NCBI GenBank assembly: GCA_002698425.1
Contig: NZXU01000115.1
Coordinates: 1 to 38,129 of the forward strand
DNA: 38,129 nucleotides
Source: Ahrensia sp.
GTDB taxonomy: Bacteria; Pseudomonadota; Alphaproteobacteria; Rhizobiales; Rhizobiaceae
Direction of reading: 5' to 3'
The notes under the pieces are model-generated. The model was not told the origin of the DNA, did no database searches, and worked only from the letters and a program-made list of their open reading frames with translations. Shown here piece after piece: positions 1,927-28,927 of the stretch. A program made the position numbers and the translations under genes. Position 1 is the first letter of the stretch; every line of letters starts with the position of its first letter.

Positions 1927-2535
1927 TCAGAAGCTGGTGCGCGAACGGAGCGCCGCCGACAGGGTGCCCTCGTCGAGATAGTCGAGTTCGCCGCCGACCG
2001 GGACGCCGTGGGCGAGACGGGTGATCTTGACGTCGAAGCCGGCGAGCTGGTCGGTGATGTAGTGGGCCGTGGTCTGGCCCTCGACCGTGGCGTTGACGGC
2101 GAGGATCAGTTCGGAGACGCCGCCTTCGGCGACGCGGCCGACCAGCGATTTGATGTTGAGATCGTCCGGGCCGACGCCATCGAGCGGCGACAGGGTGCCG
2201 CCGAGCACGTGGTATTTGGCGTTCATCGCGCCGGCGCGCTCCAGCGCCCAGAGATCGGAGACGTCCTCGACGACGATCAGGGTGGCGCCGTCGCGGCGCG
2301 GGTCGGAGCAGATCGAGCAGGGGTCGACCGTGTCGACATTGCCGCAGACCGAGCACTCCGTGACCTTGTCGACCGCCTCGGCGAGCGCGGCGGCGAGCGG
2401 ACCCATCAGCTGGTCCTTCTTCTTGATCATGTGCAGGGCGGCGCGGCGGGCCGAGCGGGGGCCGAGCCCCGGCACCTTGGCCAGAAGCTGGATCAGTCGC
2501 TCGATCTCGGGTCCGGCGATTCGCTTGGTGGACAT
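1927..2535 (-). CDS. recR: Recombination mediator protein RecR
   Basis: The 202-residue length matches the RecR family. In order it has an N-terminal helix-hairpin-helix ([17 protein letters not shown], about residues 20-36), a four-cysteine zinc finger (Cys61, Cys64, Cys73, Cys76), a Toprim domain beginning at LIVVEDVSD, and a Walker-B-like C-terminal segment with [17 protein letters not shown]. RecR works with RecF and RecO to load RecA on gapped DNA. The ATG at 2535 gives the canonical [14 protein letters not shown] start; longer extensions are non-coding. In many bacteria recR follows dnaX-ybaB directly. Here about 3 kb of other genes separate them, and recR heads its own short transcript with a HAD hydrolase gene. 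Confidence 0.97.
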
Positions 2536-2651
2536 GGCAAAGATGTATGGGTTTCGGGCCCGGCGGAAAAGGGAAAACGTTGCGGTGACAAGAATCGGGT
2601 GGCGCGAATGACGCCGTCTTGGCAGGGTCGGCACGATCACCGGAGAGTTCA

Positions 2652-3572
2652 ATGCCGACCGCCCGCACATCGATGACGCCCGCCGAATGGGCCATGCTGA
2701 TCGCGCTTTCGCTTCTGTGGGGCGGGTCGTTCTTCTTCAACGGCGTCGCGGTGAAGGACCTGCCGCCGCTGACCATCGTGTTCGCGCGGGTGGCGCTGGC
2801 GGCGCTGACGCTGCATCTGTTCATGGCGGCGACCGGCAGGCGGATGCCGGGCGGAAGGCAGGCCTGGTTCGCCTTTGCCGGGATGGGCCTCCTCAACAAT
2901 GTGGTGCCGTTCTCGCTTATCGTCTGGGGACAGGGCCAGATCGCCTCGGGGGTCGCCTCGATCCTGAACGCGACGACGCCGCTCTTCACCGTGCTGGTGG
3001 CGCATGCCTTCACCGCCGACGAGCGGCTGACGCCGCTGAGAATCGGCGGCGTCGCAGCGGGGTTCGCCGGCGTGGCGGTGATGTTGGGCGGCGGTCATCT
3101 GGCCGGCGGCGCGCCGGTGCTTGCCTATACGGCCTGTCTCGGCGCGGCGCTCTCCTACGCGTTTTCCAGTGTTTACGGGCGGCGGTTCCGGGCGCTCGGC
3201 ATCGCGCCGCTGTCGGTGGCGACGGGGCAATTGACCGTGTCGAGCCTGATCATGGCGCCGATGATGCTTGTCGTCGACCATCCCTGGGCGCTGGCGATGC
3301 CGGGCATAGACACGGTTCTGGCGATCGTGGGGCTGGCGACGGTGTCGACCGCCCTCGCCTACCTCCTGTTCTTCCGCATCCTCGCAGGCGCGGGCGCGAC
3401 GAATATCTCGCTCGTCACCTTCCTGATCCCGCCGAGCGCGATCCTGCTCGGGATCCTCTTCCTCGGCGAGACGCTGCTGGCGCGCCACGTGGCGGGGCTG
3501 GCGCTGATCGGGCTCGGGCTGGCGCTGGTCGACGGGCGGCTTATGAAAAAGCGGCGGCGTCAGGCGGCCTGA
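2652..3572 (+). CDS. EamA-domain (DMT superfamily) transporter
   Basis: This 306-residue protein has ten predicted membrane helices arranged as two EamA repeats. The first begins [32 protein letters not shown], the second near [23 protein letters not shown]. It ends with a short Lys/Arg-rich cytoplasmic tail (KKRRRQAA). The LWGGSFF signature is characteristic of drug/metabolite exporters such as RhaT/YdcZ/RarD relatives. Substrate is unknown; amino-acid or metabolite efflux is the usual role. ATG 2652 was chosen because of the cggagag ribosome-binding site just upstream. It is divergent from recR (116-bp gap) and convergent with the membrane-protein gene at 3634, with a terminator in between. 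Confidence 0.88.
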
Positions 3573-3582
3573 AGCCGGACGA

Positions 3583-3614
3583 AAAAACCCCGGCCGTGGC
3601 GGCCGGGGTTTTTC
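3583..3614. terminator. Bidirectional Rho-independent terminator
   Basis: A nine-base-pair GC stem (ccccggccg / cggccgggg, loop tgg) is flanked by an A-run on the left and a T-run on the right. It can therefore terminate both the EamA transcript (+) and the convergent membrane-protein transcript (-). The stem is perfectly paired. Confidence 0.9.
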
Positions 3615-3633
3615 ATTCACGACGGCTGTTCTG

Positions 3634-4344
3634 TCAGGAGCGCTTGAACCGCTCACGCAGGTAAGGCGGAACGACGCCGTGGATCGCGGTGCCCTCGTCG
3701 CGGTGCGACCCGCCGGTGGTGGCGGCGAACCATGCGGCGGCGGCGGCAAGCGCAGCGCCGGCGGCGGAGGCGAAGTTGAAGACGACGCCCGCGGCGGCGG
3801 TATTGGCCAGAACCTCCGCGGCGATTTCGGCCGAGCCGGTATCCGCGACCGCTCCGATGCCGGCCAGCGCCGTGGCAACGGAGACGGCGAACATGGCGAC
3901 CACGCCGGAAACGGCCCAGACGACGAGCCCGTGCACGCCGTCGCGGAACTCCACCTCGTCCTCGGTCGCGTCATAGGCACGGGTGCGCATGCGGCCGGCG
4001 AGATAGCCGCCAGCCGAGGCGCTGGCCAAGGCGACCAGAACAAGCCAGAGCCCGGCGATCAGCGGGTTCCAAGACGCGCCGCCGCCTTCCAGCGTGGCGT
4101 CTGCCGCGGCGGTCAGGCCGATGCCCGCACCGAACTGGGTCAGCAGCATGGTGATGGCGAGCGCGACAGCCGCGCCGCCGAAGACGGGACCCCATTCAAG
4201 ATAGGAGCCGGTGGCCGACGACGCGACGGGGACGTCGGCGGTGACAACGGGCGCGTCGGCCTTCGCCGCGCGCACGGTGCGTTTCCTTGCCGTGGTCGCG
4301 GTCTTGGCCGCGGCGGTGGTCCTGGTTGCTGGTTTGTCTGCCAT
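3634..4344 (-). CDS. Four-helix integral membrane protein (PhnA-like annotated family)
   Basis: The 236-residue protein has a positively charged, Ala/Thr/Lys-rich N-terminus of about 50 residues. Four hydrophobic segments follow (around VFGGAAVALAITMLLTQFG, LIAGLWLVLVALASASAGGY, LVVWAVSGVVAMFAVSVATAL and a Gly/Ala-rich last helix). The GGYLAGRMR turn and the SYLEWGPVFGGAAVA start match a widespread rhizobial family usually labelled PhnA-like, for which no biochemical function is known to me. The ATG at 4344 is 5 nt after the stop of a 24-residue membrane peptide gene, and both sit behind an EcfG-type promoter. A general stress or envelope role is therefore inferred from context only. Confidence 0.7.
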   Translation of the reverse strand: MADKPATRTTAAAKTATTARKRTVRAAKADAPVVTADVPVASSATGSYLEWGPVFGGAAVALAITMLLTQFGAGIGLTAAADATLEGGGASWNPLIAGLWLVLVALASASAGGYLAGRMRTRAYDATEDEVEFRDGVHGLVVWAVSGVVAMFAVSVATALAGIGAVADTGSAEIAAEVLANTAAAGVVFNFASAAGAALAAAAAWFAATTGGSHRDEGTAIHGVVPPYLRERFKRS

Positions 4345-4349
4345 AGGGC

Positions 4350-4424
4350 TCACCGAAGGCCGAGCAGCGACAGGATGAACATGACGACGACGACGAGGCC
4401 GACGAGATAGATGATAGCATTCAT
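4350..4424 (-). CDS. 24-residue single-helix membrane peptide
   Basis: The minus strand has ATG at 4424, a strong ribosome-binding site (cgggaga, 9 nt upstream), 24 codons and TGA at 4350. The peptide starts MNAIIYLVGLVVVVMF and ends SLLGLR: one uninterrupted hydrophobic helix with a single terminal Arg. I remember similar ~24-residue peptides of the form MxxIIYxVGxxVVVxxxLSxxGLR in other rhizobia. It lies directly downstream of an EcfG-type promoter and 5 nt upstream of the four-helix membrane protein gene. Function is unknown; a membrane-stress peptide or a leader setting translation of the next gene are both possible. Confidence 0.7.
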   Translation of the reverse strand: MNAIIYLVGLVVVVMFILSLLGLR

Positions 4425-4459
4425 GATGATGTCTCCCGAGCTTGTTGGACTGCCCAACC

Positions 4460-4485
4460 AACGGCGGAAGACGCGATTAGGTTCC
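4460..4485 (-). promoter_or_regulatory. EcfG/RpoE2-type general stress promoter
   Basis: On the minus strand GGAAC (4485-4481) and CGTT (4463-4460) are separated by exactly 17 nt, the known form of promoters recognised by the alphaproteobacterial general stress sigma factor EcfG. The CGTT element is 35 nt upstream of the ATG of the 24-residue peptide, giving a short leader. Confidence 0.75.
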
Positions 4486-4575
4486 GTGGCGGGATCGGCG
4501 ACCCGCCCCGGCGACGGAAAAAAGTGCGGTGGGTGCGGCGTCCGGGAAGATGCGGTCGATGCCGGGCTTGACGAG

Positions 4576-4606
4576 AAAAGCCCCCGCCGCTTGTGCGGCA
4601 GGGGCC
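4576..4606 (-). terminator. Rho-independent terminator of the Gly/Asn-rich exported protein gene
   Basis: Read on the minus strand, a GC-rich stem (gcccctgccgc / gcggcgggggc, one unpaired base, loop acaa) is followed by TTTTC. It begins about 27 nt after the stop codon at 4633. Confidence 0.85.
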
Positions 4607-4632
4607 GATGATGCGTGGTCGAAATCTATGCT

Positions 4633-4998
4633 TTAGTGGCGGCCGCCGCCGTTTCCACCATTGCCTCCGCCGCCACCATTGCCGCCGCCGCCATTGCCGC
4701 TGCCGGCACTGTCACGGCCGGAGCCTTGCATGGAGGAGGAACCGCCCTGGTCGATGTCGACCGTATCCGGGCGGCCCTGGCGCATGGCCGAGATGAAATC
4801 GACCAGCGTGCCGCCGCCCGCAAGGCCTCCGCCGGCGAAAGGCTCATCTCCCGCCGTGTCGAGACTGTCGAACCGCGCGTCATGAATGCCGAGCGGGTCG
4901 AAAGCGGTGCCTTCGCCCCATTTGGAGTTGTGGTCGGCCAGCGCCGCGCCTGAACCTGCGACGAGAAGGGCGAGAGCGAGAGCGATTTTCGTGGTCAT
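4633..4998 (-). CDS. Exported Gly/Asn-rich hypothetical protein
   Basis: The 121-residue protein begins with a clear Sec signal peptide (MTTKIALALALLVAGSGAALA, likely cleaved before DHNSKWGEG). A central acidic region follows (AFDPLGIHDARFDSLDTAG and a VDFISAMRQGRPDTVDIDQGG stretch). The last 25 or so residues are Gly/Asn only, ending in Arg-His. The mature start with HNSxWGEG and an IHxxR motif resembles small secreted hypothetical proteins I remember from rhizobia; no enzymatic motif is present. The start at 4998 is set by the signal peptide. It has its own terminator downstream and a 13/15-nt palindrome upstream. A periplasmic or surface role is inferred; function is unknown. Confidence 0.7.
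   Translation of the reverse strand: MTTKIALALALLVAGSGAALADHNSKWGEGTAFDPLGIHDARFDSLDTAGDEPFAGGGLAGGGTLVDFISAMRQGRPDTVDIDQGGSSSMQGSGRDSAGSGNGGGGNGGGGGNGGNGGGRH
4636..4707 (-). repeat. Gly/Asn codon repeat
   Basis: The 3' end of the exported-protein gene is a run of GGC/GGT and AAT codons giving GGGGN-type units. Units are multiples of three, so slippage would change tail length without breaking the frame. Confidence 0.7.
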
Positions 4999-5071
4999 GT
5001 CATGATCCTCGGGTTGATTGGACATTTTACATTCCGTTTTTGGAATATGAATTGTGACCAAGCCGGGACCG

Positions 5072-5086
5072 GATTTCCCGGAAATC
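5072..5086. promoter_or_regulatory. Perfect 15-nt palindrome upstream of the exported-protein gene
   Basis: GATTTCC-C-GGAAATC lies 74 nt upstream of the ATG at 4998. A second short inverted repeat (ATTCC / GGAAT) lies at about 5032-5046, nearer the gene. Both have the size of dimeric regulator sites, but no regulator can be named. The rest of 4999-5172 shows no further gene. Confidence 0.4.
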
Positions 5087-5172
5087 ATGCCAAATGGTCG
5101 CAGACCCCCGCCCTGACAGCGCCGTGACGGGCAGTTGTCAGCCGGGCGTCAGCCAAAGGTAAACGAAAGCTT

Positions 5173-5205
5173 TCAGAACGGCAGCTTCATGCCGGGCGGG
5201 ATGGG
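5173..5205 (-). pseudogene. Remnant of the ybaB 3' end (displaced copy)
   Basis: Read on the minus strand this stretch encodes [10 protein letters not shown] followed by TGA, identical in amino acids to the last ten residues of the intact YbaB at 5579. The two copies differ at four codon third positions (CCG/CCC, CCC/CCG, AAG/AAA, TTC/TTT) and in the stop codon (TGA/TAG). Upstream the sequences no longer match. AAG and TTC fit host codon use better than AAA and TTT, so this looks like the original chromosomal end of ybaB, cut off by insertion of the segment carrying the RraB-like gene. Confidence 0.75.
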
Positions 5206-5227
5206 CGACGGTTGCGGAGATCGGCTT

Positions 5228-5554
5228 CTATCGGTCAGCCTTAAAAAAGCCCCAACCATCGCTGCTACCGGCGTGAGAATTCGCAAAGCTGGCCAGTCGC
5301 AATTCGGCCGAGGTGATGTTTTCGCATGTCGGCGTCATCGCCCTACTTGCGGTAACAACCCACGGGTTATCCTCGTTTTCGGTTACATTAATCGTTGTTG
5401 AGAAGCCCTCTTTCTCGGCAGCCCGCGCAAACGATTCAGCGGCGGACTGATTTGGAAAGATGCAGGAAAAATCGACCGGACGAATGATACTCAGATCGAT
5501 GCCATTTTCTGCGAGGTTCTCCAGGACCCGGCGATTTTCCTCAAACAAAGACAA
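5228..5554 (-). CDS. RraB-like protein (ribonuclease E inhibitor B domain)
   Basis: The 108-residue protein begins SLFEENRRVLENLAENGIDL and continues with RPVDFSCIFPNQSAAESFAR, VTENEDNPWVVTASRAMTPT and, at the end, SSDGWGFF. The DFxxxFP, WxVTxxxxMxPT and DGWG elements are those of the RraB family (PF06877), whose E. coli member binds RNase E and modulates RNA decay. Only TTG codons (5554 or 5548) can serve as start. The frame is the same as that of ybaB, with just nine codons between the ybaB TAG and the TTG. G+C is about 50% over 5341-5520 (90 of 180 bases counted), well below its neighbours. It lies between two copies of the ybaB 3' end, pointing to acquisition. Whether it acts on RNase E here is inference. 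Confidence 0.75.
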   Translation of the reverse strand: MSLFEENRRVLENLAENGIDLSIIRPVDFSCIFPNQSAAESFARAAEKEGFSTTINVTENEDNPWVVTASRAMTPTCENITSAELRLASFANSHAGSSDGWGFFKADR

Positions 5555-5578
5555 TTTCCCGGGTCGACCGAAAGTTGC

Positions 5579-5611
5579 CTAAAACGGCAGTTTCATGCCC
5601 GGGGGGATGGG
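5579..5611 (-). repeat. Repeat copy at the live 3' end of ybaB
   Basis: This is the functional counterpart of the displaced copy at 5173-5205: the last ten codons plus stop of ybaB. The repeat spacing is 406 bp, and the enclosed DNA carries only the RraB-like gene. Confidence 0.75.
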
Positions 5612-5902
5612 GAGGCCGGCGGTCATTTCCTGGGTTTTCTCGGCGACGATCGCCTCGATCTTGCCCTTGGCGTCGTTGTGGGCGGCGATGATGAGGTCTT
5701 CGAGGATCTCGACATCGTCCTCCTTGAACATGGAGGGGTCGATCTTGACGGCCTGCAGGACGCCCTTGCCGGTGAGCGTGACGGTGACCATGCCGCCGCC
5801 GGCCGTACCGTCCGCGGTCATGGTTTCCATTTCCGCCTGCATGGCCTGCATCTTTTCCTGCATTTCCTTGGCCTTGCTCATCAGGCCCATGATGTCGCGC
5901 AT
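5579..5902 (-). CDS. ybaB: YbaB/EbfC nucleoid-associated protein
   Basis: The 107-residue protein has the full family layout. An N-terminal Met-rich helix ([25 protein letters not shown]) is followed by a short beta sheet with [11 protein letters not shown], then a helix and the conserved C-terminus [12 protein letters not shown]. YbaB/EbfC forms dimers that bind DNA as nucleoid-associated proteins. The ATG at 5902 is preceded by GGGAGAA on the minus strand and lies 18 nt after the dnaX stop, the usual dnaX-ybaB arrangement. The last codons are duplicated 406 bp downstream. The live copy uses AAA and TTT where the remnant has AAG and TTC, suggesting the 3' end itself came with the inserted DNA. 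Confidence 0.95.
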
Positions 5903-5920: not shown

Positions 5921-7774
5921 CTAAAGATCGTCGGCCTCGTCGGGATCCAGCGGGATCTCCTGATCGTCGGGCGCCTGTTCCAGCATATCGTCTTCGCTCG
6001 GCTGATCGGCAAGGCGCACATCGATGATTTTCGCGCCGGGAAAGGCGGCGAGGATGGCGGCGACCTCGGGATCGCGGCTGGCGTCGGCGACGGCGGATTC
6101 GCGGCGCTCGGTCTCGATCTCGTCCAGCGTCGCGCCGCCCGGTTCGCGCGACAGCGAGACGATCCAGCGCACGCCCGTCCAGTCCTGCAGGCGTTTCGAC
6201 AGATCGCCGAGCAGCGAGCGCGGCGCGTCCTCGGTGAGCGAGACGGCGAGCTTGCCCGGCTCGATGGAGACGGGGCGGATGCATTTGCGCAGATTGACCC
6301 GCATCAGCGGGTCGCGGTTTTTCTCGGCGAGATCGACGAGATCCTGCATGGAATAGACCGGCACGGAGGGCTTTGCCGGCTCGGGCTCAGGTTGCGGCTG
6401 GGCTTCGTGGCGAACGGGCTCGGGCTCCGAGGAGATGAGGCGCACGGCCTGAGCCGGGCCGCCGTGGCTGGCGGTCGGCTGGGGCGCGTGGCTTTCCGCG
6501 GAGACCGGGGCCGAGGATTGCGCGACGGCATGTGCGCCCCCGTTGCCGGGGGATGCGGCTGAAGAGGATGAGGACAAGGCCGGGCGCGTCGGCTCGCCGG
6601 CGGGCGCGTCGTCGAGCGCCTTCAGCGCCTCGTCGAGCGTCGGCAAGGTGGCAGCGTGGGCGAGCCGGATCAGCACCATCTCGGCGGCGGCGACCGGGCG
6701 CGACGACAATTCGGCCTCGGGAATGCCCTTCAGCAGCATCTGCCAGGCGCGCGACAGGACCTTGACCGGCAATTGTTTCGCGAAGGCGAGGCCGCGCGTC
6801 TTTTCGTCAGGGGTCAGGGACGGGTCGTTCTCGGCCGCCTCCGGCACGAAGCGCAGGCGGGTGACGAGATGGGTGAAATCGGCGAGATCGGTCAGCACGA
6901 CGGCAGGATCGGCTCCGACATCGTATTGGGCGCGGAACTCGTCCAGCGCCGCGGAAATGCGGCCGGCCATCAGATGCTCGAACAGGTCGATGACGCGGGC
7001 GCGGTCGGCGAGGCCCAGCATGGAGCGGACGGCTTCCGCGTCGACCGTGCCGGAGCCATGGGCGATCGCCTGGTCGAGGATCGACATGGAATCGCGCACC
7101 GAGCCCTCCGCCGCGCGGGCGATCATGGCGAGCGCCTGCTCGTCGGCGGTGACGGATTCCAGATCGGAGATCTTGCGCAGATGGGCGGCGAGTTCGGCGG
7201 TGTCGATGCGGCGCAGGTCGAAACGCTGGCAGCGCGACAGGACGGTGATCGGGACCTTGCGAATCTCGGTCGTCGCGAAGATGAACTTCACATGTTCCGG
7301 CGGCTCCTCGAGCGTCTTCAGCAGGCCGTTGAAGGCCTGCGTAGAGAGCATGTGGACCTCGTCGATGATGTAGACCTTGTAGCGCGCCGAGACCGGGCGG
7401 TAGCGCACCTGCTCGATGATCTCGCGGATGTCGTCGATGCCGGTATGGGAGGCGGCGTCCATCTCGATGACGTCGACATGGCGGCCCTCCATGATGGCGG
7501 CGCAGTGCTCGCCCATCTCGGCAAGCTCGATCTGCGGCTGGTGGACGCTGTCGGTCTCGTAATTGAGCGCGCGGGCGAGAATGCGCGCCGTCGTCGTCTT
7601 GCCGACCCCGCGCACGCCGGTCAGCATCCAGGCCTGGGCGATGCGGCCGGCGGCAAACGCGTTTTTCAGCGTGCGCACCATCGGCTCCTGGCCGATCAGG
7701 TCGGAGAAATCGCGCGGGCGGTATTTGCGCGCGAGAACGCGATAGGGGGCCTGCGATGCGGGGGTGTCGCTCAT
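5921..7774 (-). CDS. dnaX: DNA polymerase III subunit gamma/tau
   Basis: The 617-residue protein starts with the AAA+ clamp-loader ATPase domain. Walker A is GVRGVGKT (residues 53-60), Walker B is VYIIDEVHML, sensor 1 is FATTEIRKVP, and the arginine-finger motif is SRCQRF. A Pro/Ala/Ser/Glu-rich linker (about residues 390-470) leads to a C-terminal tau region (VYSMQDLVDLAEKNRDPLM onward) that contacts the polymerase and helicase. Only one Cys (Cys90) is present where E. coli DnaX has four zinc ligands, as I recall for rhizobial homologues too. No A-rich slippery heptamer of the E. coli type was seen, so gamma may not be made by that route. It lies just downstream of the SRP RNA gene and upstream of ybaB. 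Confidence 0.97.
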   Translation of the reverse strand: MSDTPASQAPYRVLARKYRPRDFSDLIGQEPMVRTLKNAFAAGRIAQAWMLTGVRGVGKTTTARILARALNYETDSVHQPQIELAEMGEHCAAIMEGRHVDVIEMDAASHTGIDDIREIIEQVRYRPVSARYKVYIIDEVHMLSTQAFNGLLKTLEEPPEHVKFIFATTEIRKVPITVLSRCQRFDLRRIDTAELAAHLRKISDLESVTADEQALAMIARAAEGSVRDSMSILDQAIAHGSGTVDAEAVRSMLGLADRARVIDLFEHLMAGRISAALDEFRAQYDVGADPAVVLTDLADFTHLVTRLRFVPEAAENDPSLTPDEKTRGLAFAKQLPVKVLSRAWQMLLKGIPEAELSSRPVAAAEMVLIRLAHAATLPTLDEALKALDDAPAGEPTRPALSSSSSAASPGNGGAHAVAQSSAPVSAESHAPQPTASHGGPAQAVRLISSEPEPVRHEAQPQPEPEPAKPSVPVYSMQDLVDLAEKNRDPLMRVNLRKCIRPVSIEPGKLAVSLTEDAPRSLLGDLSKRLQDWTGVRWIVSLSREPGGATLDEIETERRESAVADASRDPEVAAILAAFPGAKIIDVRLADQPSEDDMLEQAPDDQEIPLDPDEADDL

Positions 7775-7852: not shown

Positions 7853-7955
7853 GGGTGGGAGGCTGGCACGGTGACCCGTGCCGTGGCTCGTTAGGGCTGC
7901 TTCCTTCCGGACCTGACCCGGTTGGCGAGTGGCTCGTCCACCACCAACCTCCCGA
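7853..7955 (-). ncRNA. ffs: Small signal recognition particle RNA (4.5S RNA)
   Basis: The minus strand carries the universally conserved SRP helix-8 motif GTCAGGTCCGGAAGGAAGCA, which forms the Ffh-binding apical hairpin with GGAA-type tetraloop. The ends pair as GGGAGGTTGG with a CCAGCCTCCC counterpart, giving the single long rod typical of the ~100-nt bacterial small SRP RNA. It acts with Ffh and FtsY in cotranslational membrane targeting. The position between the HIT gene and dnaX, about 80 nt upstream of dnaX on the same strand, is common in this order. Ends are placed by the terminal helix and may be off by a few bases. Confidence 0.93.
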
Positions 7956-26255: not shown

Positions 26256-27608
26256 CTACTTGGCGGCGTCCCAGGAAGCCTGGATTTCCTTGGCGACATC
26301 CTCGGCGGACTCGCCGCCCACATAGTCGACCATACCCGTCCAGAAGGATCCCTGGCCGACAGCCGCCGGCATCAGGTCGGAAGCGTCGAAGCGGAACGTG
26401 TCGGCGCCGAGCAGGATGCTACCCAGACCACGCTGGGTATCGTCGATGTAGACATCGAGATTGACGTCCTTGTAGGGCGTCAGGAAGCCCGCCTGCGCCA
26501 TCATGATCTCATGCGCGATCGGCGTCTTGAGGAATTCCATGAAGACGCGTGTCGCCGGGCTGTCGTTGGTGATCGCCAGAAGCGTGCCCGCGCCGAGAAC
26601 CGGCTTGCCGAGATCCTTGTCCGAGTAGGACGGGAAGTAGAAGAAATCCGCATCCTCGCCGACCATGGTCCCTTCCGGGAAATAGGCCGGAATGAAGGAG
26701 GCCTGGCGATGCAGGTAGCACTGCGGCGGCGACGAGAAGAGGCCCTTTGGCGAGTCGCGGAAGTCGGTCGAAGCGACAGTATCCGCTCCGCCGGCGACGA
26801 AATCGTCGTTGCGCGCGAACCAGCCGAATTCGTTGATGGCATTGATGACGCGCTCGTCGGTGAAGGGCATCTCGTTCGACACCCACTGGTCGTACACGTC
26901 CGGCGTCTGGGTGCGCAGCATCAGGTCTTCCACCCAGTCGGTGGCCGGCCAGCCGGTCGCCGCGCCGGAGCCGAGGCCGATGCACCACGGCGTTTCGCCG
27001 TCGGCGACGATCTGCTCGGTCAGCGCCTTGAGATCTTCCATCGTCTCCGGCACTTCGTAGCCGGCATCCTCGAAATTCTCCGGGACGTACCAGACAAGCG
27101 ACTTCACGTTGACGTTGAAGAAGAAGCCGTAGAACTGGTCCGCGCCGCCCTGGTCGGCATAGGTTCCCAGATCGACCCAGGACTGGCCGGCGGCGTAATG
27201 TTCGCGCACCCAGCCGGCCATGTCGTCGCCGAGCGGAGACAGGAAGCCGCGGCTGGCGAGACCGGCGGCGAGGCCGGGCTGCGGGAAGGCGGTGATGTTC
27301 GGGGCGGAGCCGGCTTCGGCGTCGATGACGATCTGCTGCTCAAGGCTGTCCGAGCCGGTGTAGCGGATATCCGCGCCGGTCGCCGCGGCGAAATAGGCGA
27401 CAAGGTTCTCAATGGATGTCGCCTCGCCGGCCAGCCACGGCCCGAAGAAGGTGATCTGCTGACCGGACAGGTCGTTGGCGTCCGCGAAGGCGTTGTAGCT
27501 GTCCCAGTTGAAGCCGCCTTCGCCTATCGGAAATTTGAGATCCTGCGCCTGCGCCGAAACGGCGGTCAGGGCAAAGGCGGCAACGCCCGCCAACAATAAC
27601 TTTTTCAT
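26256..27608 (-). CDS. aglE: Alpha-glucoside ABC transporter substrate-binding protein
   Basis: The 450-residue protein has a Sec signal peptide (KKLLLAGVAAFALTAVSAQA, cleaved before QDLKFPIGEG). It carries the body of a family-1 sugar-binding protein: IENLVAYFAAATGADIRYTGSDSLEQQIVI, QPGLAAGLASRGFLSPL, PETMEDLKALTEQI and WPATDWVEDLMLRTQ. This is the periplasmic receptor that delivers sucrose, maltose or trehalose-type sugars to AglFG. Start 27608 has AGGATTTTCG upstream. It is the first gene of the agl operon. An operator-like palindrome and a TTGACT element lie about 75 nt upstream, divergent from aglR. Confidence 0.93.
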   Translation of the reverse strand: MKKLLLAGVAAFALTAVSAQAQDLKFPIGEGGFNWDSYNAFADANDLSGQQITFFGPWLAGEATSIENLVAYFAAATGADIRYTGSDSLEQQIVIDAEAGSAPNITAFPQPGLAAGLASRGFLSPLGDDMAGWVREHYAAGQSWVDLGTYADQGGADQFYGFFFNVNVKSLVWYVPENFEDAGYEVPETMEDLKALTEQIVADGETPWCIGLGSGAATGWPATDWVEDLMLRTQTPDVYDQWVSNEMPFTDERVINAINEFGWFARNDDFVAGGADTVASTDFRDSPKGLFSSPPQCYLHRQASFIPAYFPEGTMVGEDADFFYFPSYSDKDLGKPVLGAGTLLAITNDSPATRVFMEFLKTPIAHEIMMAQAGFLTPYKDVNLDVYIDDTQRGLGSILLGADTFRFDASDLMPAAVGQGSFWTGMVDYVGGESAEDVAKEIQASWDAAK

Positions 27609-27680
27609 CGAAAATCCTCCCAGGATCGGTTTTCAAACGAGTAACAAGACTCATAGAGCATTCATGTGCTCATAGCCAGT

Positions 27681-27692
27681 CAAAGCGCTTTG
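27681..27692. promoter_or_regulatory. LacI-type operator in front of aglE
   Basis: CAAAGCGCTTTG is a perfect 12-nt palindrome with the central CG/GC form typical of LacI-family sites. On the minus strand its right end overlaps TTGACT, a good -35 element for aglE, so binding would block transcription. A further short inverted repeat (GAGCA / TGCTC) lies between it and aglE. Confidence 0.7.
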
Positions 27693-27858
27693 GCTGCGCC
27701 CGAGCTTTCGCGTTGAGCCACTTTGAGTCAAGCGAAATATTTGTCACACCGCCTTGTCGGCCATCAATGGCGGGGCCTGTTTTTCCGTCCTTCCCAGGAT
27801 TTCGGTTTTTCACGCAAAACGAAAAAACTGGCTTTCAGCGCCGGAATTATGCACTATC

Positions 27859-27870
27859 CAAAGCCCTTTG
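27859..27870. promoter_or_regulatory. Second operator-like site next to aglR start
   Basis: CAAAGCCCTTTG differs from the site at 27681 by one base and ends 25 nt before the aglR GTG. This suggests autoregulation or looping between the two sites, which are 178 nt apart. Confidence 0.55.
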
Positions 27871-27895
27871 AATGCCTTTGGGAGGAGGGCATCCA

Positions 27896-28927
27896 GTGAA
27901 TCTCAAGGAACTTTCGGACAAACTCGGCCTGTCGCAGACGACGGTCAGCCGCGCCCTGAACGGTTATCCCGAGGTGAGCGAGGAGACCCGCAAGCGGGTC
28001 CAGGCTTTCGCGCGCGAGATGAACTACCAGCCGAATTCCAATGCGCGGCGGCTGGCGACCGGCAAGTCCAACACGATCGGCCACGTGGTGCCGCTTTCGC
28101 ATCACGACATGATCAATCCGCACTTCTCCGACTTCATCGCAGGCGCAGGCGAAATCTACAATCAGCGCGGCTACGACATGCTGATCTCGGTGGTGAATGC
28201 GGGGGCGGAAAAGTCGGTCTACGAGACCCTGCACCGCAACCGGCGCGTCGACGGCGTGATCGTGCATGGGCCGCGCGTCGAGGACGAGCGGCTGGACCTG
28301 CTGCGCAAGCTGAAACTGCCCTTCGTGGTGCATGGCCGCAGCAACGATCCCGAGGACAGCTATTCATGGGTGGACGTGAACAACCGGCGGGCGTTCCACA
28401 CGGCCGCAAAATATCTGCTGGACGCCGGCCACCGGCGCATCGCGCTGATCAATGGCTGGGAGTACATGACGTTCGCGGCCAAGCGCCGAGAGGGGCTTGA
28501 AACGGCGATGCGTGAGCATGGGGTCGAGCCCGATCCGCAGATCATGATTTCCTCCGAGATGATCGAGCCGGTGGGCCATGACGAGATGAAGCGGTTTCTC
28601 GAGCTCGACAATCCGCCGACCGCAGTGCTGTGCTCCAGCGTGCTGAACGCGATGGGCGCGATGCGGGCGATGCACGAACTTGGCTGCAGGCCCGGAGAAG
28701 ATGTCTCGCTGATCGCCTATGACGATTGCCTGTCCTTCCTGCCGACAACGGGCGAGCGCCCGGCGATCACCGCCTTGCGGTCGAGCATCCGGCTCGCCGG
28801 CAAGCATTGCGCCGAGATGCTGATCGACCTGATCGAGAAGGAGACCGGGCCGCGCAACCTGCTGCTGGAGGCGGAATTCGTTGTCGGCGCGTCCACAGGC
28901 CCGGCGCAGCAGACGGCCACCGCTTAA
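27896..28927 (+). CDS. aglR: LacI-family transcriptional regulator of the agl operon
   Basis: The 343-residue protein has an N-terminal LacI helix-turn-helix (NLKELSDKLGLSQTTVSRAL then NGYPEVSEETRKRV) and hinge helix (NARRLATGKSNTIGHVVPL). A periplasmic-binding-protein-like sensor domain ends with a DVSLIAYDD segment and an LTxLRSSI-like stretch. It would repress aglEFGAK until a sugar ligand releases it. GTG 27896 is chosen: it directly follows GGAGGAGGGCATCCA and gives the exact HTH start. It is divergently transcribed from aglE across 287 bp containing two near-identical operator palindromes. A 9-bp hairpin follows 22 nt after its stop. Confidence 0.92.
   Translation: MNLKELSDKLGLSQTTVSRALNGYPEVSEETRKRVQAFAREMNYQPNSNARRLATGKSNTIGHVVPLSHHDMINPHFSDFIAGAGEIYNQRGYDMLISVVNAGAEKSVYETLHRNRRVDGVIVHGPRVEDERLDLLRKLKLPFVVHGRSNDPEDSYSWVDVNNRRAFHTAAKYLLDAGHRRIALINGWEYMTFAAKRREGLETAMREHGVEPDPQIMISSEMIEPVGHDEMKRFLELDNPPTAVLCSSVLNAMGAMRAMHELGCRPGEDVSLIAYDDCLSFLPTTGERPAITALRSSIRLAGKHCAEMLIDLIEKETGPRNLLLEAEFVVGASTGPAQQTATA

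Follow-up and report, generated by a model that had tools for sequence, protein, structure and literature searches.

The 406-bp unit that separates two copies of the 3' end of ybaB on an Ahrensia sp. contig (NZXU01000115.1) was probably left by a one-sided recombination event in which two versions of the DNA behind this gene took part. The window, by which we mean the whole stretch of 38,129 nucleotides that was analysed, carries an intact ybaB, a single RraB-like gene behind it and a second, displaced ybaB end. The event looks like a known kind of sloppy recombination and not like a new mobile element, and in our judgement it is best read as a real and well preserved footprint of a known process that is seldom so cleanly visible. 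In the proposed course of events, DNA of a related bacterium with an RraB-like gene behind its ybaB would have paired with the resident ybaB, a homologous crossover would have taken place somewhere within ybaB or upstream of it, and the other end of the donor DNA, which lacked homology, would have undergone an illegitimate join immediately ahead of the final ten codons and the stop codon of the resident gene. The resident ybaB end and the genes downstream would have been pushed 406 bp away, and the YbaB protein would have been left unchanged because the donor end encodes the same residues. The live end and the RraB-like gene would then be the newcomers. If this reading is right, one foreign gene can become established downstream of a core gene with no mobile element involved and the host gene unharmed. 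Double gene ends with only silent differences would also provide a searchable signature, so that the natural frequency of this route becomes measurable across genomes.

The features of the locus are given below in the direction of transcription of ybaB.

5921..7774, minus strand: ORF that we take, by its position, to be dnaX, the first gene of the conserved dnaX-ybaB pair; homologous and collinear at loci L001, L002, L118 and L119
5579..5917, minus strand: ybaB, intact, nucleoid-associated protein family (Pfam PF02575, E 3.2e-31; TIGR00103 above cut-off), with a likely ATG start at 5902
5579..5611, minus strand: 3' end of the live ybaB, taken to be the incoming copy; two codons absent from the nine relatives compared
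5555..5578, minus strand: spacer of 24 nt from the ybaB stop to the RraB-like gene, with a terminator-like hairpin match (5573-5557) of chance-level frequency
5228..5554, minus strand: RraB-like gene, 108 aa (Pfam PF06877, E 2.3e-24), read as incoming
5206..5227, minus strand: 22-nt stretch from the RraB stop to the junction, with no further ybaB remnant
5173..5205, minus strand: displaced 3' end of ybaB, taken to be the resident copy, with a non-homologous junction at 5205/5206
4633..5088, minus strand: small secreted-protein-like ORF (likely start 4998), directly behind the displaced end; a 63% identical ORF (G005:C54:31008-31343) adjoins ybaB in genome G005
3634..4461, minus strand: membrane-protein-like ORF, the next gene towards recR, with homologues in the ybaB-recR gap of L001, L002 and L119
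2619..3572, plus strand: EamA transporter gene, overlapping the listed 5' end of recR
1927..2670, minus strand: recR (TIGR00615, E 7.6e-64), the far border of the variable gap

Upstream of dnaX, a small SRP RNA gene was matched at 7855-7952 on the minus strand (Rfam RF00169, 61.1 bits).

The last ten codons and the stop codon of ybaB are present twice in the window, 406 bp apart. The live end (minus strand, 5611-5579) reads CCCATCCCCCCGGGCATGAAACTGCCGTTTTAG and the second copy (minus strand, 5205-5173) reads CCCATCCCGCCCGGCATGAAGCTGCCGTTCTGA. The two differ at 6 of 33 bases (positions 9, 12, 21, 30, 32 and 33), namely four silent third positions and two stop-codon bases (TAG versus TGA), and both encode the same ten residues, exactly as the initial annotation of this DNA had described them. 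When the live 33-mer was compared with both strands of the whole window, two copies were returned (0 and 6 mismatches) and the next best match had 11 mismatches; the double end is therefore not due to chance. At the homologous border of the unit, the ybaB end encoded by the two copies is the same and their differences in the codons are silent; the join at 5205/5206 is sharp. A weak repeat hinted that the ybaB remnant might extend into the 22 nt preceding the second copy; this was rejected, since the mean best match there was 12.2 of 22, against 11.8 of 22 for shuffled sequence.

The G+C content of the unit is 53.7%, falling to 50.0% over 5341-5520, against 64.4% for the window and 61-68% for ybaB, dnaX and two downstream stretches that were measured, making the unit an outlier. 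Of 755 windows of 406 bp sampled at 50-bp steps, six were as low in G+C, two of these lying over the unit itself. The earlier description of a single gene of lower G+C between the copies holds for both the composition and the ORF, which belongs to the RraB family and is the sole gene in the unit. Elsewhere in the window, sampled G+C drops to the level of the insert only at 27451-28006, where, judging from the translations, a solute-binding-protein-like gene begins next to the intergenic space that separates it from a LacI-like regulator.

The cargo protein is, by sequence, a member of the RraB family; binding or limiting of RNase E is not assumed. Its match to PF06877 scored 86.3 bits against a curated cut-off of 23.3 and spanned profile positions 2-101 of 102, its match to the solved VC0424 was weak (E 0.0027), and NCBIfam returned no match at E 0.01. 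The TTG start of the gene agrees with the conserved MSLFEEN start of the family. Other RraB-like members are 46-70% identical to the window protein, P0002-P0008 among them at 52-70%, and the genes occur sporadically, in 5/201, 6/377 and 8/374 genomes of overlapping samples; a large protein search returned eight RraB-like proteins, the window's own included, and no match was found in any of six genomes of the Oricola-group genus. A donor locus, with ybaB adjoining RraB, was not found among the 20 loci fetched for RraB matches (some of them the same place twice and one without a confirmed RraB), each taken with about 1.5 kb of flanking DNA; no ybaB match in them was convincing. At locus L081 an RraB-like gene adjoins a pnp-like gene, a label taken from reading translations. 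At another locus, L082 (G103:C4:99434-99745), one lies among genes that read in translation as phage-like structural genes, which suggests that prophages may carry RraB-like genes. No relatives were confirmed in viral contigs, plasmids or phages; nine viral-contig stretches fitted the peptide pattern and none held.

Judging from the 24-nt gap, it is possible that the RraB-like gene is expressed from the dnaX-ybaB transcript. A consensus scan detected no promoter-like site before the gene, which would fit read-through from ybaB. The same scan gave two terminator-like matches (1.6 expected), one of which, however, sits in the ybaB-RraB gap.

The window YbaB is closest to that of Oricola (95% at L001 and 90% at L002) among the best 80 of 537 confirmed genome-contig stretches, and the genus search around genome G007 covered six genomes, those of L001 and L002 included. 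The order dnaX-ybaB-...-EamA gene-recR is common to the relatives and the genes right behind ybaB vary: G005 has the secreted-protein gene there, G007 has other genes, and L001 and L002, with neither the RraB-like nor the secreted-protein gene in between, have the membrane-protein gene; in L003 and L004 the place is taken by a gene that is presumably agmatine-deiminase-like. The ybaB-recR stretch (window 1927-5578) is thus variable within the Oricola group. In G337, ybaB matches in two overlapping pieces (L162, G337:C334:2634-2938), suggesting a frameshift or an assembly error.

The arrangement without the insert is present in G005, an Oricola congener. Its ybaB ends in TTCTGA and is followed directly by the homologue (63%) of the window ORF 4633-5088, and the region upstream of its ybaB is recognisably collinear with the window. 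The second copy in the window also ends in TTCTGA and is likewise followed by this ORF, with no downstream loss relative to G005 evident behind ybaB. The alignment with relatives that the initial annotation had proposed thus produced a locus free of RraB in which the secreted-protein gene stands right behind ybaB, and from this order the second copy most likely represents the original gene end, still at its original site. Compared with the ybaB tails of nine relatives, the second copy has fewer differences than the live copy for six and as many for three, and it holds no codon unseen in the nine, while the third proline (CCC) and last phenylalanine (TTT) of the live end were found in none. In G007, the relative whose ybaB is nearest to that of the window, the end is three bases away from each copy and other genes follow, so the direction of the event rests mainly on G005. 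The body of ybaB was inspected for a change to foreign sequence, but no clear one was seen, nor was the replaced ybaB sequence recognisable; the donor would accordingly have been a close relative, or the crossover would fall in the last codons.

When three overlapping samples (201, 394 and 387 genomes) were scanned with patterns of the ybaB end, one other linked double end was returned, in genome G042. With the first pattern the end was found in 95/201 genomes and the linked pair in G042 only; a wider pattern matched in 356/394 family genomes and 181/387 order genomes, the latter a draw centred on G042 itself, with the same single linked pair. No match was returned for 106/201, 38/394 and 206/387 genomes, whose tails may be too diverged for the patterns. 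Where genomes had two same-strand tail matches, these were unlinked in 9 of the 10 in one list and 5 of the 6 in another (two being in both), the nearest on one contig lying 78 kb apart. In a profile scan, 94 sequences were usable, namely the window and 93 loci, among them G042 because of its pair. The second end of G042 scored 57.7, that of the window 18.2 and the next best (L096) -16.4, with a maximum of -20.0 for the reverse-complement controls. The search for further inserts bounded by the ybaB end, also put forward in the initial annotation, therefore yielded one more linked pair, with different contents and a repeat of 69 instead of 33 nt.

G042 is an independent, better resolved second case and, with its searchable signature, a new point. 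At 1578-1762 of locus L117 (G042:C55:32500-37216), two 69-nt copies start 116 bp apart with 47 nt between them, a piece that is palindrome-like by eye. They differ at 4 of 69 bases, comprising three silent differences and a TAG/TAA stop change. The first end and the next 47 nt correspond to the version found behind ybaB in the sister genome G219 (3 of 47 differ), with which G042 shares 90% over 1132 bp, through ybaB back into dnaX, and a 100% identical YbaB. The second end and its flank correspond to the version in G283 (83% over 145 bp, 72% over 671 bp and 76% over 318 bp). The two versions switch on AATG, which is present both behind the G219 ybaB and inside ybaB; the probability of a microhomology of at least 4 bp at a random junction is 0.016. 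The two ends differ from G219 by 11 and 9 bases and from G283 by 8 and 7 (of 69), and since they are nearer to each other than to either genome, G219 and G283 are to be taken as carriers of the two versions and the true parents as closer relatives. A doubled ancestor that was later trimmed in G219 could also account for the arrangement. We infer for the window the same mechanism as in G042, together with the direction of the event and a route by transformation or conjugation.

Integrative elements that enter at gene 3' ends carry a silent-site-diverged gene end at one border, by which the gene is restored. The anatomy of the window fits such an integration, in which the element's copy would restore the gene end and the old end would be displaced, and the event could have involved either a non-autonomous element that copied the ybaB end and used an outside integrase, or an integrase-bearing element that lost its interior; we consider this improbable. 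The window differs from these elements in having no motif of a tyrosine recombinase, the class that was scanned for, no fixed repeat length and no free element that could be found. Among 184 loci scanned, the only matches were xerC-like and about 4.5 kb from ybaB (L069, L072 and L074), and the exact degenerate ybaB end pattern was absent from the viral contigs. The repeats of the two cases are unequal (33 and 69 nt) and their contents differ, the joins in G042 are accounted for by two neighbouring versions, and linked double ends are rare. A prophage in a ybaB gene is known, GBSInt8 of group B Streptococcus (PMC7487436), although its listed core looks to us like the 5' end of the gene. Of the original suggestion, insertion of foreign DNA bringing its own diverged ybaB end is upheld by G005 and by the simulation described below, and the absence of an integrase is borne out for tyrosine recombinases by the motif scan of the window. 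The integrating element or non-autonomous cassette, which lacks this motif, a viral-contig match and a constant repeat length, is unsupported. The other possibility raised at that time, recombination with a foreign ybaB-rraB locus, fits best, such a locus itself not having been found.

Short tandem duplications are common in general, and the window's own ybaB end might have been doubled in this way, with RraB inserted between the copies later and the differences arising afterwards. We regard this as very improbable, because all coding differences are silent in both the window and G042. A simulated decay in which the spare copy was free and the live end took silent changes only, with equal rates and no transition bias, kept the reading in 43 of 60000 runs at six differences (the window) and in 1286 of 60000 at four (G042). 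It is moreover the live end, and not the second copy, that holds the two codons unseen in the nine relatives. The same mechanism could also have run in the opposite direction, with ybaB-RraB resident and another strain's ybaB end with the secreted-protein gene as the newcomer. The loci L001 and L002, with neither gene between ybaB and the membrane-protein gene, the equal distance of the G007 end from both copies and the presence of the secreted-protein gene in only one of 13 genomes searched (G005) would all be in keeping with this. We nevertheless find it rather unlikely, since in G005 the secreted-protein gene stands immediately after ybaB, whose stop is likewise TGA, and since RraB is the compositional outlier (unit 53.7% versus 61-68%) and has no match in the six genus genomes.

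One-sided recombination as proposed for the window has counterparts in published systems. In homology-facilitated illegitimate recombination (HFIR), homology acts at one end and an illegitimate join is made at the other; a report on E. coli describes 3-10 bp of microhomology in most cases and a general deletion of resident DNA (PMC3240628). The AATG join of G042 is likewise microhomologous, whereas the window holds a natural footprint and not a laboratory event, with resident deletion not evident. For the sequential displacement of effector genes that goes with orphan immunity arrays in Vibrio cholerae, and for rhs C-terminal displacement, it has been proposed that incoming DNA anchors in a conserved gene and that the former 3' end, or a gene downstream, is moved back yet retained, much as we propose for the window (PMC5361080). 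The 3' region there changes function and the retained immunity may be selected, in contrast to the window, where the protein end of a housekeeping gene is unchanged and an RraB-like gene forms the cargo. Homology-assisted illegitimate recombination has also been proposed, in a study of E. coli dimorphic loci, for short strain-specific segments (PMC2884548); one segment replaces another there, whereas in the window both versions stand in a row with a double gene end.

A broader reading, which we hold to be unlikely, makes the ybaB-recR gap in these Alphaproteobacteria a site that captures genes without a recombinase. Incoming pieces would anchor in the conserved ybaB body and stack ahead of older ones through ordinary recombination, with ybaB ends serving as cassette borders much as in an integron. 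Among the open-licence papers listed by the literature searches, none was on the ybaB double-end arrangement.

A general doubling of gene ends was also considered and rejected. Of 5491 open-frame ends, a number that includes shadow frames and overlapping loci, 14 had a second copy within 3 kb at no more than 7 of 33 mismatches: three rows of ybaB (one from the window and two that are G042 with different locus ids), eight low-complexity Xanthomonas repeats, two at L086 and one at L049. None of the 11 non-ybaB ends was a silent-difference pair, and the reversed-tail control gave 0. Because ybaB was the ground for choosing the loci, and the double end that for choosing G042, the screen says little about other genes. 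A DNA search of plasmids with the unit and with the wider region matched only ybaB (3 and 6 records, respectively). The six plasmid-collection records that hold a ybaB-like stretch belong to Sinorhizobium, Shinella and Paracoccus and are 1.7-4.6 Mb in size; some of these may be chromosomes or chromids.
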